DNA of 64,000 nucleotides from positions 2,914,001 to 2,978,000 of the forward strand of contig NZ_CP062803.1 in assembly GCF_008801925.2 (NCBI RefSeq). Reading direction: 5' to 3'. A program made the position numbers and the translations under genes. The notes beneath the pieces were generated by a model that worked only from the letters and a program-made list of their open reading frames with translations, was not told the DNA's origin and searched no databases. This DNA is from Cupriavidus basilensis (GTDB lineage: Bacteria; Pseudomonadota; Gammaproteobacteria; Burkholderiales; Burkholderiaceae). Below are positions 13,495 through 53,827 of the stretch, piece after piece. How positions within the stretch are numbered: position 1 is the first letter of the stretch; each line of letters begins with the position of its first letter.

Positions 13495-14127
13495 TCAGGA
13501 CGCTTCGTCATCCGGCCCCACCGGGCCGGGGTCGGGTTCAACGCCGATGCGGTAGGTAACAACGAAACGCGGCCAGTCCACATGGTCCACCAGGTCGATG
13601 TCCTCGATGACGCCAACCTTCGCTCCCGCACGCTCGAACAGGGCGATGCTCTTGGCGGGATAGTTGTTGCGCGACGGATAGAGCACCCCGTCGAACAGCG
13701 CCTGGCCATCATCTCCGAGCATCGCATGCACCTGGGCGGACACCCGCTGCGTGTGCGTGTAGTCGCGGCTGGCCAACTGCTCCAGGTTCAGGCCGAAGTA
13801 GCCCGCCATGACGCCCTGCGCCGTGAGATCGGCCAGAAACACGTCGTCCATCACGCCTACTGCGCGCACCATCCGGGCTTGGACTTCTTTCAGCGCGATC
13901 GAGCGTTGCGTGTCCGCAAGCCACTGGTGCTTGTGAAACACCGACTCCATCAGCGCCGTGGGCAGGTCGCGCCCCAGGTAGAGCACGCCGTAGGCCCCCG
14001 CTGGGTCATCGTAGCGATTCGTGCTGCTGCGGCCATAGTACAGCGGGCTGCCCCGATAGACGACGCGGCTCACATGCTGGAGCAGTTCACCGGCATCGAT
14101 CAGGAACGAAGGCAGCTCGTGGCTCAT
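13495..14127 (-). CDS. RES-domain toxin (NAD+-degrading type)
   Basis: The 210-residue protein has the RES-domain pattern: an early Arg (VVYRGSP), then RYDDPAGAYGVLYLG and ALMESVFHK, supplying the R-Y-E residues seen in RES proteins. Characterised RES toxins deplete cellular NAD+ by phosphorolysis or hydrolysis and arrest growth. It starts 12 bases after the antitoxin stop in one operon. It is likely an addiction module for ICE maintenance. Biochemical activity is inferred from the family. Confidence 0.85.
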   Translation of the reverse strand: MSHELPSFLIDAGELLQHVSRVVYRGSPLYYGRSSTNRYDDPAGAYGVLYLGRDLPTALMESVFHKHQWLADTQRSIALKEVQARMVRAVGVMDDVFLADLTAQGVMAGYFGLNLEQLASRDYTHTQRVSAQVHAMLGDDGQALFDGVLYPSRNNYPAKSIALFERAGAKVGVIEDIDLVDHVDWPRFVVTYRIGVEPDPGPVGPDDEAS

Positions 14128-14139
14128 GGCGGTCTCGCT

Positions 14140-14766
14140 TCAATGCACCTGGACGCCCAGCACGTTGAACACGGCCTCGGCCACGTCATCGATCGTGCCA
14201 TGCGTCACCGCATCCACGGGCGAGCGACCACCCAGGCCTTCGAGGGGTTCGGACAGCGCGCGGTAGATCGTCCAGTGGTCGATGCCCTCGACCTCCTGGA
14301 GCACGGTTTGGGTCAACTGCTGCTTCACCGGGTCGAGCTGCCAGTCGGGCAGCTTCTGGCCGCGCGGCCCCACGTTCAGCGCCAGCAGCCGACGGGCGAG
14401 GATGTCCTTGTAGATTTGCTGGCGCGACTTGTCCGCCAGCTTGGCGAACTCGGCAGGCGGCAGGTTGTCCGGCTGGTTGAAGGCTTCCAGCAGCAAGGCG
14501 CGGCCTCGCTGGACATCGGTTTCAGCCGGTGTCCAGCGCGTGTCGGAGCGCAACGCGGCCGCCTTGCGCTGCAAGGCCTGCGCCACCGTTTCACCTTCCA
14601 GGTTGGCGGGCAGCGTCACCGCCTCCACGCGCTCGTGGATGAACGCCTGCAACTCAGCCGCGAACGCCGGTGCATCCCGGATTTCGACGGTATCGGCGAA
14701 GCGTCGCACATCCTCCACCGTGACTCGCGGCAGCCGGTCGGCAATGAATTCGATCGCAGTGGGCAT
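14140..14766 (-). CDS. Antitoxin of the RES module (Xre/MbcA/ParS-like)
   Basis: The 208-residue protein is first gene of the toxin operon. Residues ~105-140 contain a helix-turn-helix-like stretch (FAKLADKSRQQIYKDILARRLL, then NVGPRGQKLPDWQL). The C-terminal ~70 residues correspond to the toxin-binding part of this antitoxin class. It is unusually long for the class, with a ~85-residue N-terminal region of unknown use. Residues 87-204 align closely with the C-terminal domain of the ICE integrase (see findings). It should neutralise the RES toxin and repress its own promoter at 14800-14828. Confidence 0.8.
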   Translation of the reverse strand: MPTAIEFIADRLPRVTVEDVRRFADTVEIRDAPAFAAELQAFIHERVEAVTLPANLEGETVAQALQRKAAALRSDTRWTPAETDVQRGRALLLEAFNQPDNLPPAEFAKLADKSRQQIYKDILARRLLALNVGPRGQKLPDWQLDPVKQQLTQTVLQEVEGIDHWTIYRALSEPLEGLGGRSPVDAVTHGTIDDVAEAVFNVLGVQVH

Positions 14767-14799
14767 GGTCAGCTCCCAGGTAGGTTTGAGACAGGATTC

Positions 14800-14833
14800 A
14801 CTCTAGTCTCCTTTGTCGCATTTGTCAACTTAG
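14800..14833 (-). promoter_or_regulatory. Promoter of the RES antitoxin-toxin operon
   Basis: Read on the minus strand: TTGACA (14828-14823), a 17-base spacer and TAGAGT (14805-14800), close to the sigma70 consensus. The spacer contains two TTTGTC copies (plus strand, about 14812-14817 and 14821-14826) that may be half-operators. ACTTAG (14828-14833) overlaps the -35 box. Confidence 0.75.
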
Positions 14834-14851
14834 TCGCCCGGGTGGGAGCCT

Positions 14852-14901
14852 ACCTGGCGGTGTAGCGCCCCGGCAGCATAGGCCGGGGCCCAGCGCCAGG
14901 T
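14852..14901. repeat. Nested inverted repeats upstream of traI (regulatory or oriT candidate)
   Basis: Outer arms are ACCTGGCG (14852-14859) and CGCCAGGT (14894-14901). Inner arms are GCCCCGGC (14867-14874) and GCCGGGGC (14882-14889) with a 7-base loop. The structure lies in the 316-base non-coding gap between the divergent antitoxin and relaxase genes. Its role (oriT, operator or attenuator) is not decided by the sequence alone. Confidence 0.6.
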
Positions 14902-14977
14902 CGCCGTCTAATCCATTCGTGCGGGTTCCGCATTGACGCTGGAGCCGCAGCCCAGGCCCCGCTATACCGAAACGGTT

Positions 14978-15053
14978 AAAGGCCAAAGGGTCGAAACGGC
15001 AAGGGAATGGGGTGCAAGGGGAAAGGCCCTACCTTGAAAAGGCCAAAAGGCCT
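14978..15053. repeat. Four AAAGGCC direct repeats and a short hairpin before traI
   Basis: AAAGGCC occurs at 14978, 15022, 15038 and 15046; the last two form part of a small palindrome (AGGCC-AAAA-GGCCT, 15040-15053). This purine-rich stretch ends 30 bases before the relaxase start. Short iterated motifs beside a relaxase gene are common in oriT or relaxosome-binding regions, but no nick site can be named. Confidence 0.4.
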
Positions 15054-15082
15054 CCCGCCCGGCCCGCCATCAGGACACCGAC

Positions 15083-51581: not shown

Positions 51582-53525
51582 CTAGACCCCTTCAAGCACC
51601 GCTGCGCTGTCCACCAGTCGGCGGACGCTCTGCCGCACGTCCTCGGGGATGGGCCGCGGGGCAACGGCCTCGGGCACATCCGCATGGTGCTGGTAGTCGC
51701 CCATGAGAACCCGGATGATTGCGGGCACGTTCGTTGGCGTGACCGCATCAATGGCCGCACGATCACCCAGGTCGGGGTGAGGCTGGGTCAGCATGCGGTA
51801 CAGGTCCCACGAATCGGCGTGCGGGCATTGGTTCATGAGCACTTGGGCCAGCTTGTGCTTGAGCGGCACCAGTTGCCAGTCGGGAACCCGCTGCCCCCGG
51901 TTGCCCAGGCTGATCGACAGCAGCTTGCCCGCCTTCAGCTCGCGGTTGATCTGGTCCTTGGACTTCCCGGCCAGCTTGCCGAACAGCGGGACCGGCAGAT
52001 TGTTCGGCGACTCGTAGATGGCCAGCATTTCCTCGCGCTCGCGCTGGATCGCGGAGACTTCCGGCTCCGGGGCATGCACCGGAGGCGGCGGCACCTGCGA
52101 CAGCCGCTGGAACATGATTCCGCCGCTGTTGGGGGTCACGACGATAGGCGTGGCCACCACGGGCGGCACGCCGGGGACAACAGGCTCAGCAGTCGTGGAG
52201 ACCGCGCCCACCACTTCCTCCACTTCCGCCATTGCCGGCACCCCGTCGATACGGATGGTCAGATGCGCGCTCGCGGCTTCGACTTCACCCTGTTCGAGCA
52301 GGTCAAGACGGTCTGCCCAGTCCTGCATCATGCGACGCCGAGGCTCCACGTACTTGGCGTGGTTGTAGGCCGAACTCACCTTGTTGGGGTCGGAGTGCGA
52401 AAGCTGAGCGTCCACCCAAATCTTCGGGTATCCGATCTCGTTGAGCGCGGTCGAGATGGTGCCGCGGATGCCGTGGCCGGTCAGGCGCCCCTCGTAGCCC
52501 ATGAGCTGCACGGCCTTGTTGAGGGTGTTCTCGCTGATGCGCTTCTTGAGTTCGCTGCGATGCGACAGCAGGTACTTCTGCGCTGGACGCATCACGCCCA
52601 GGAGATAGCGCACGATCTCGATGGCCTGCAGGGACAGGGGCACGATGTAGGGCGGCACGTCCTGCGGCCGCTTGCCGGCCTTGCGCATTTCGTCCTGGAG
52701 TTGCTTGACGACCTGCGGCGGGATGATCCACAAGCCGCGGTCGAGGTCGAATTGCTCAGGCTCGGCCAGGCGCAACTCGCCCGTGCGCACCCCCGTCAGG
52801 AACAGCAGCCGGACGCCAAGCTGGGTCTGCCAGCCCCGGGGGTTGTAGCGCCGGAGCTTCTGAAGGAACTCGGGCAGCTCGGGCAGGTGCAGATAGGGGT
52901 TGTGGGCCACCGGGGGCTTGGGCTCGGCCACCACGTCCAGGTCCGCGGCCGGATTGACTTCCAGCCCTTCGGCGATGACCAGGGCATAGCGGAACATCTG
53001 GTTGAACCAGGTGCGGACCTTCTCGGCGGTGGTGAACGCCTTGCGTTTCTCGATCGCCGCCACGACGCCCACGAGCTGGGGCCGTCGAATGTCGTAGATC
53101 GACATCTTCCCCAGGGTAGGCAGCACGTCCTTGTTGAAGATGCGCAGGATCTGCGAAAGCGTGCTCTGACGGCCTTCCTTGAGTTCCTTGCGGCGATGCT
53201 CGACCCAAGCATCGAAGACGTTCTTGAAGGTGTATTCGCCCGCCAGCTTGGCCGCGTGCCGGCGCTGGTCGCGTTCGATTTGGGGATCAATGCCCTTGGC
53301 GAGCAGAACCTGAGCCTTGTCCCGCTCGGCGCGGGCCTCGCGCAGACTGAGGGCGGGATAGCCACCCAGGGACATGCGCTTTTGCTTGCCCAGCCAGTAG
53401 TATCGGAAGATCCACGACTTGCCGCCTGCGGCAGAGACCATCAGGCCCAGGCAGTCGTTATCGGAGAGGGTGTAGCGCTTGCCGGTGGTTCTTGCCTGCC
53501 GGACTGTCAGATCAGAGAGTGCCAT
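51582..53525 (-). CDS. int: ICE tyrosine integrase with C-terminal antitoxin-like domain
   Basis: The 647-residue integrase is of P4/ICEclc type. The N-terminal arm-binding domain (LTVRQARTTGKRYTLSDNDCLGL) is followed by a core-binding region. The catalytic domain has R247 (TGVRTGEL), H351/R354 (GHGIRG), H377 (LSHSDP) and Y387 (SSAYNHA). A Pro/Val-rich linker (about 440-493) then leads to residues 494-610, which match the RES antitoxin of this ICE, and a ~37-residue tail. Ordinary relatives end near residue 420. It recombines the ICE at the tRNA-Gly 3' end. The ribosome site lies in an inverted repeat. Confidence 0.92.
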   Translation of the reverse strand: MALSDLTVRQARTTGKRYTLSDNDCLGLMVSAAGGKSWIFRYYWLGKQKRMSLGGYPALSLREARAERDKAQVLLAKGIDPQIERDQRRHAAKLAGEYTFKNVFDAWVEHRRKELKEGRQSTLSQILRIFNKDVLPTLGKMSIYDIRRPQLVGVVAAIEKRKAFTTAEKVRTWFNQMFRYALVIAEGLEVNPAADLDVVAEPKPPVAHNPYLHLPELPEFLQKLRRYNPRGWQTQLGVRLLFLTGVRTGELRLAEPEQFDLDRGLWIIPPQVVKQLQDEMRKAGKRPQDVPPYIVPLSLQAIEIVRYLLGVMRPAQKYLLSHRSELKKRISENTLNKAVQLMGYEGRLTGHGIRGTISTALNEIGYPKIWVDAQLSHSDPNKVSSAYNHAKYVEPRRRMMQDWADRLDLLEQGEVEAASAHLTIRIDGVPAMAEVEEVVGAVSTTAEPVVPGVPPVVATPIVVTPNSGGIMFQRLSQVPPPPVHAPEPEVSAIQREREEMLAIYESPNNLPVPLFGKLAGKSKDQINRELKAGKLLSISLGNRGQRVPDWQLVPLKHKLAQVLMNQCPHADSWDLYRMLTQPHPDLGDRAAIDAVTPTNVPAIIRVLMGDYQHHADVPEAVAPRPIPEDVRQSVRRLVDSAAVLEGV

Positions 53526-53534
53526 TTCGAGGCT

Positions 53535-53552
53535 CCTAAGTTATGACTTAGG
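53535..53552 (-). promoter_or_regulatory. Inverted repeat overlapping the integrase ribosome binding site
   Basis: CCTAAGT-N4-ACTTAGG, perfect 7-base arms. In the mRNA the 3' arm runs into the AGGAG ribosome site just before the ATG, so it could hide the site in a hairpin or be a protein operator. Confidence 0.6.
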
Positions 53553-53683
53553 CCTAATGCTCGTCATGGTTCCCGCTCAGCCCCAGCAACTATCCGGTAG
53601 CCGTCCCAACCGTATTCTTGTGCCTCAATTGGTCACTCAAAAACGGTAGCTGTGGGTGGATTTCCGTGGCGCTCGCTGGAATG

Positions 53684-53709
53684 AAAAAAGGGGCCAAAGC
53701 CCCTCTTTT
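53684..53709 (-). terminator. Rho-independent terminator downstream of tRNA-Gly
   Basis: On the minus strand GGGGC-N4-GCCCC is followed by six T. It lies inside the ICE end, between the tRNA and int; it has a T-rich tail on the other side too and may work both ways. Confidence 0.8.
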
Positions 53710-53717
53710 CAACGACT

Positions 53718-53741
53718 TACAGACGTCAGTAGAAGTCTGTA
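53718..53741. repeat. Inverted repeat at the ICE end
   Basis: TACAGAC-N10-GTCTGTA, perfect 7-base arms, 10 bases inside the tRNA 3' end. It may be part of the recombination site bound by the integrase. Confidence 0.5.
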
Positions 53742-53751
53742 GATCACTATC

Positions 53752-53769
53752 TGGAGCGGGAGACGAGGC
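53752..53769. other. Probable ICE attachment core at the tRNA-Gly 3' end
   Basis: ICEclc-type integrases recombine at the 3' terminal ~18 bases of tRNA-Gly. The integrase gene lies 227 bases away, so this segment is the likely att core. The matching copy at the other ICE end is outside the window. Confidence 0.65.
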
Positions 53770-53827
53770 TCGAACTCGCGACCTCAACCTTGGCAAGGTT
53801 GCGCTCTACCAACTGAGCTACTCCCGC
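53752..53827 (-). tRNA. tRNA-Gly (GCC)
   Basis: It is a 76-base cloverleaf with acceptor pairs GCGGGAG/CTCCCGC, discriminator T and encoded CCA. The D-arm is AGCTCAGTTGGTAGAGC, the anticodon loop TTGCCAA (GCC, glycine) and the T-loop GTTCGAGCC. It is intact even though the ICE abuts its 3' end, because the element restores the end sequence. Confidence 0.95.

Follow-up and report, generated by a model that had tools for sequence, protein, structure and literature searches.

An ICEclc-type integrase with a C-terminal module homologous to a RES antitoxin of the same element

An ICE of Cupriavidus basilensis encodes a tyrosine integrase that runs on for 255 residues after residue 392, where its arm, central and catalytic domains end by Pfam comparison, and the question is where this tail comes from and what it does. 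We analysed one window, meaning the whole stretch of 64,000 nucleotides (RefSeq assembly GCF_008801925.2, contig NZ_CP062803.1, positions 2,914,001 to 2,978,000 of the forward strand), and number positions from its first letter (Table 1). The three domains, together with the tRNA-Gly(GCC) gene alongside, assign the integrase to the P4/IntB13 type. A sequence-only reading of the window had placed the integrase on the same element as a RES antitoxin, and the MobH relaxase, TraC, TraG_N and TIGR03755 matches, with the tRNA-Gly gene beside int, bear this out. Judged from family matches of the relaxase (MobH/TIGR03760, PFGI-1 class) and of the T4SS core (TIGR03744 TraC, TraG_N and TIGR03755), the element is predicted to be of the PFGI-1-class/ICEclc type.

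Table 1 Features of the integrase gene, the RES locus and their flanks (window positions).
Feature	Position	Strand	Basis or remark
Tyrosine integrase, P4/IntB13 type, 647 aa	51582..53525	-	Pfam Arm-DNA-bind_3, Phage_int_M, Phage_integrase
Recombinase proper, residues 1-410	52296..53525	-	Pfam matches stop at residue 392
Variable linker, residues 411-487	52065..52295	-	dN/dS 0.25, mean column identity 0.82
Captured antitoxin-like module, residues 488-608	51702..52064	-	BLASTP 46/109, hhalign 99.7%
Winged-helix-like tail part, residues 509-556	51858..52001	-	Antitoxin identity 25/48
ParS/MbcA-like tail body, residues 557-598	51732..51857	-	15/42 identical, dN/dS 0.23
Degenerate match to antitoxin C-terminal helix, residues 599-613	51687..51731	-	0/15 identical, dN/dS 0.655
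Perfect inverted repeat CCTAAG-N6-CTTAGG at int ribosome-binding site	53535..53552	.	Sole copy in window
tRNA-Gly(GCC), presumed insertion site	53752..53827	-	ARAGORN
RES antitoxin, 208 aa	14140..14766	-	RES gene 12 nt downstream; C-terminal fold comparison
Winged-helix-like antitoxin part, residues 101-148	14323..14466	-	Alignment
Xre/MbcA/ParS-like antitoxin part, residues 149-205	14152..14322	-	
RES-domain toxin	13495..14127	-	PF08808 E=1.1e-18
Third gene, DUF3742, 136 aa	13045..13455	-	PF12553 E=4e-43
Antitoxin promoter/operator block, 9-bp iterons	14799..14831	-	Conserved in 24 thinned upstream regions

Homology of the integrase tail to the RES antitoxin

BLASTP aligned integrase residues 488-596 with antitoxin residues 80-188 without gaps (46/109 identical, 72/109 similar, E=1e-28), close to the roughly 44 identities in 112 positions counted in the sequence-only reading, and the Smith-Waterman score of the pair was 247 against a maximum of 63 over 2000 shuffles. 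Comparison of the two family alignments by hhalign joined antitoxin residues 80-199 to integrase residues 488-607 over 120 columns (probability 99.7%, E=4.3e-25), so that the profile comparison proposed as a check finds the two regions related. The tails also matched outgroup RES antitoxins from beyond ICEs, six of seven copies of which adjoin RES genes, at 98.7%, with five shuffled controls at 0.4% or less. The C-terminal module of the integrase is homologous to the RES antitoxin. In the genome of the window, a search with the antitoxin profile found two places only, the antitoxin and the integrase tail, and 311 proteins matched the tail at E<=0.001. Identity between the window pair differs by segment: the winged-helix part has 25/48 identical residues, the ParS body 15/42 and the last helix 0/15. 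The earlier view that the common region spans both the HTH-like segment and the presumed toxin-binding end thus holds for the former and only in part for the latter, antitoxin residues 191-205 having no identities.

The 208-aa gene is, by sequence and fold comparison, a predicted RES antitoxin of the Xre/MbcA/ParS class. Its 12-nt spacing from the RES gene is kept in 78 of 80 loci (L021 and L082 are without RES), and the DUF3742 gene lies beside the pair in 74 of the 80. The C-terminal part, in a structure model that is usable only for about residues 140-208, aligns best with Xre, VPA0769, ParS and MbcA chains, a toxin-binding fold. Neither PF09722 at E<=1 nor any other Pfam family matched the window antitoxin directly; PF09722 matched the relatives L131, L133 and L124 at E values of 0.0004-0.0076, below the Pfam cut-off, and did not match L135, and the one HTH_17 match, at E 0.055, was in L124, a distant relative. 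Searched against PDB sequences, the antitoxin profile gave 0 matches at E<=10, PHROGs had no match for antitoxin or toxin, and PADLOC none for integrase, antitoxin or toxin. The AlphaFold model of the integrase has pLDDT below 50 from residue 287 onward, with ten-residue means of at most 41 in the tail, and supports no fold assignment there. We note that homologues of the 208-aa antitoxin are often named 'integrase' in public databases, a label that probably stems from the module common to both proteins and calls for caution.

Distribution of the tail and its separation from the RES pair

A search of 398 family genomes with the integrase core (residues 1-410, E<=1e-60) separated two groups of integrases. 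Among the best four or fewer matches scored per genome, the range from 43% to 56% identity is empty. Above it, the 18 full-length matches with at least 60% identity all lie in frames of 615-731 aa and also give a tail match; below it, the 63 at 35-43% all have frames measuring 401-481 aa. We set aside eight core matches at 56-90% that are partial or interrupted (in G424, in two pieces, and in G472, G617, G633, G668, G705 and G782). In 36 genomes picked for tail or antitoxin, 38 of 40 near-full-length core matches at 58% or more measure 615-731 aa, the exceptions being a 451-aa frame (G386:C34) with the tail in an overlapping frame and a 474-aa frame (G399:C22:15285) with no tail match listed. 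A broader sample, 369 genomes from across the class, proved too sparse and yielded the genome of the window itself and a single weak match; weak fragments came from G228 in that sample and from G386:C7:4752 among the antitoxin-chosen genomes. The tail is confined to one integrase clade. A passage of PMC2892462 describes even the integrase of ICEclc as "unusually long", and with all 18 close relatives at 615-731 aa the earlier statement that ordinary P4/ICEclc-type integrases end near the catalytic Tyr does not stand. In two genomes (L163, 6615-7106; L164, 6040-6531) a 163-aa open frame holds the tail alone, without an integrase core.

Tails and antitoxins were tabulated in the same 398 genomes from the best seven or fewer candidates per genome, with antitoxins taken at E<1e-60, a weak G423 row falling outside those candidates, and weak or broken rows (G466, G433, G421, G633, G448, G804, G786 and G750) scored as neither. 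On this basis 16 genomes have a tailed integrase and 15 an antitoxin (both in 6, tail only in 10, antitoxin only in 9, neither in 373). The co-occurrence that the sequence-only reading had proposed to look for is indeed above chance (Fisher p 6e-6), but 10 of the 16 tailed genomes have no antitoxin of this family, and the excess can be accounted for by both genes being carried on one element family. Every antitoxin copy in this sample adjoins a RES gene (15/15). In three of the ten tail-only genomes (G553, G589 and G644) nothing matches RES at E<=0.001, and these three go part of the way towards what the earlier reading had named as contrary to it, a common ICE integrase domain occurring without a RES pair. 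From a separate set of 40 genomes chosen for the antitoxin, 15 were searched with the integrase core, and in three of these (G389, G390 and G392) a tail-less integrase of 459 aa, presumably that element's own, lies on the contig of the RES pair, about 36 kb away; in G390 and G392 a different contig bears a tailed integrase as well. RES pairs of this family occur without any tested ICE gene at L078, L083 and L154-L161, some of these contigs being short, and BLASTP with the window RES protein (E<=1e-4) found no RES-like open frame in the flanking sequence retrieved for the tailed integrases. The tail is separable from the RES pair.

Constraint along the tail and candidate DNA sites

Constraint differs between the parts of the tail. 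Across 11 integrase genes divided into nine segments of our choosing, the winged-helix part has the lowest dN/dS (0.063, with 41 of 48 columns invariant in alignment A2), followed in our comparison by the helix preceding it (0.084), the catalytic domain (0.094) and the ParS body (0.23); the last helix has the highest of the nine (0.655). The corresponding values for last helix and winged-helix part are 0.213 and 0.113 in 23 antitoxin genes, and 0.334 and 0.151 when four non-ICE genes are added; the contrast between tail and antitoxin is therefore one of degree only, since the last helix of the antitoxin is also less constrained than its winged-helix part. In NatR-NatT, as described in a section of PMC11535050, the C-terminal helix of the antitoxin reaches into the substrate cavity of the toxin. 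No conserved, terminal helix of this kind was found in the integrase tail, in which about 34 residues follow the matching segment, and by analogy, with NatR-NatT as a guide, the tail appears to have lost conservation of a toxin-entering helix. The ParS-like body is still constrained, and protein contacts may therefore persist.

These patterns bear on the earlier proposal of toxin coupling, in which the recombinase would bind or neutralise the RES toxin during excision; if the tail did so, or if it competed with the antitoxin, the integrase level at excision would set toxin activity. The homology and the excess co-occurrence speak for such coupling. So does the set of 40 antitoxin-chosen genomes, of which 37 give a tail match; for 25 of their 41 antitoxin copies a tail match lies within 150 kb on the same contig. 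In ICEclc, moreover, the relaxase-like ORF50240 and ORF53587 flank three ORFs on one strand (52324-53196) that share a single transcript, which falls in stationary phase (log2 -1.2) as intB13 rises (+3.1), according to excerpts of PMC2892462; from gene order, these ORFs may be the equivalent of the RES operon. However, one element family can account for the co-occurrence, the helix that would enter the toxin is hardly conserved and is not terminal, some genomes with a tailed integrase give no RES match, and the RES-pair contigs of G389, G390 and G392 carry a tail-less integrase. Toxin control by the tail is thus disfavoured on sequence grounds, and we regard it as quite unlikely. The constraint on the ParS-like body would also suit a tail that hetero-oligomerises with the antitoxin, which would then tune the integrase without any contact between tail and toxin; with 10 of 16 tailed genomes lacking an antitoxin of this RES-antitoxin family among the best seven or fewer candidates per genome, we consider this very unlikely.

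The earlier reading had further suggested that the antitoxin controls int, or that the integrase binds the antitoxin operator. A 33-column matrix built from 24 upstream regions scores 61.1 at the antitoxin operator block, of which the window has one full copy, and at best -15.6 within 53500-53800, where no antitoxin operator was found near int; the two promoter regions have two 8-mers in common against a shuffle mean of 2.0. The putative recognition helices differ as well (SRQQIYKDI in the window antitoxin, SKDQINREL in the window integrase), and neither suggestion is supported. Such a difference would fit different DNA targets. Our searches found no DNA site for the integrase tail. As a separate observation, in 76 of 80 relatives the antitoxin promoter region (14767-15082) is shared with a MobH relaxase gene that points the other way, and the antitoxin might therefore regulate the relaxase too.

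Tailed integrases (L114-L171) fall into users of tRNA-Gly(GCC) and of tRNA-Gly(CCC), with a single switch on the tree. The motif SKDQ[IV]NRE[LI] is present in 7/7 aligned integrases beside the former and SRRWI[TS]YEI in 12/12 beside the latter, no tRNA having been found for eight of the 27 aligned. We considered this match of tRNA type and recognition helix as independent evidence and rejected it, the core and tail trees each needing one change only.

A different site lies at the ribosome-binding site of int, where a perfect inverted repeat could let the tail repress its own gene. The repeat is the sole copy in the window. Of 27 tailed integrases, four of them duplicates, 23 are preceded at the corresponding place by an inverted repeat of 5-8 bp, the sequence of which comes in several versions. 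Shuffle probabilities for the 23 range from 0.003 to 0.29, however, and the sequences are related; the window leader transcript folds into a hairpin at the palindrome (-12.1 kcal/mol, z -1.8), as do all four leaders folded, and the palindrome may therefore act as RNA. We judge such autoregulation unlikely; the repeat is possibly a translational switch or an operator.

Taken together, these results lead us to favour, as the probable though by no means certain account, a tail that is a once-captured RES-antitoxin module, now an extra DNA-binding domain of the recombinase and no longer a RES antitoxin. A module with winged-helix-like and Xre/MbcA/ParS-like parts would have been fused once to the ancestor of this IntB13-type clade and inherited since. 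It would now form an additional, group-specific DNA-binding domain (we infer both the binding and the site), most likely touching element DNA near the ends at excision or integration, and the ParS-like remnant may aid contact between subunits. A more specific, and in our estimate rather unlikely, version has the tail as a built-in excisionase whose winged helix binds the element arms in cis and sets direction; this would account for the description, in a passage of PMC13393423, of the ICEclc-family integration/excision module as a single recombinase.

Origin of the tail and comparison with known systems

Core and tail trees are concordant on the main (tRNA-type) groups, L128 joining the ICEclc-type group in the core tree only. 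With the long frames of the close core matches, this agreement makes one old fusion the simplest reading. In a domain tree from which ANTI_L152, OUTRES_L132, TAIL_L163 and identical rows were left out, the tail group has weak support (51/81) and the antitoxin group 77/56, with long branches at L122 and L130. Such support leaves room for the reverse origin, in which the C-terminal half of the antitoxin derives from the integrase tail. Against this, more distant, non-ICE RES antitoxins have the module (of the four tested, three gave a PF09722 match short of the Pfam cut-off), and tail-less P4-type integrases form the wider background; we hold the reverse origin to be highly improbable, and the direction of capture was presumably from antitoxin to integrase.

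Decayed elements suggest how such a fusion could arise. In G782 (L162, 8372-11146) a single open frame joins the integrase N-terminus to a whole antitoxin, with RES adjoining. We rejected it as a working fusion: the integrase match stops at residue 192 and is followed by unrelated sequence overlapping a cut relaxase gene, and the joined frame is most likely a deletion scar. At L079 (6936-11269) a decayed element has an interrupted integrase (about residues 1-582) near the antitoxin. Apparent deletions have thus left integrase residues 1-192 (L162) or about 1-582 (L079) 1-2 kb from the antitoxin, and, int and the RES operon being co-oriented, deletions that bring integrase parts near the antitoxin are a possible route to fusion.

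For the ICEclc-family integrases, a model of bacterial gene transfer, this analysis gives the long C-terminus an origin and a testable role, in which the DNA-binding module of an antidote is reused within a recombinase. By title and abstract, we found in the literature no antitoxin-like integrase tail, no role for the Int-B13 tail and no link of that tail to an antitoxin; the 1998 Int-B13 paper may discuss the tail. Int-B13 of ICEclc is likewise P4-type and, in the same passage of PMC2892462, "unusually long". As in Xre-RES, MbcTA, ParST and NatRT, a RES toxin is paired here with an antitoxin, and the chains that align best with the C-terminal part of this antitoxin are Xre/VPA0769/ParS/MbcA; unlike in those systems, the antitoxin has 208 aa, is extended at its N-terminus and contains an HTH_17-like segment. 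A parallel for the role of the tail is RdfS of Mesorhizobium japonicum R7A, a winged-helix protein that partners an ICE tyrosine recombinase according to a portion of PMC11963761; RdfS is a separate protein, whereas here the winged-helix-like part lies inside the integrase itself, where a comparable role is our proposal.
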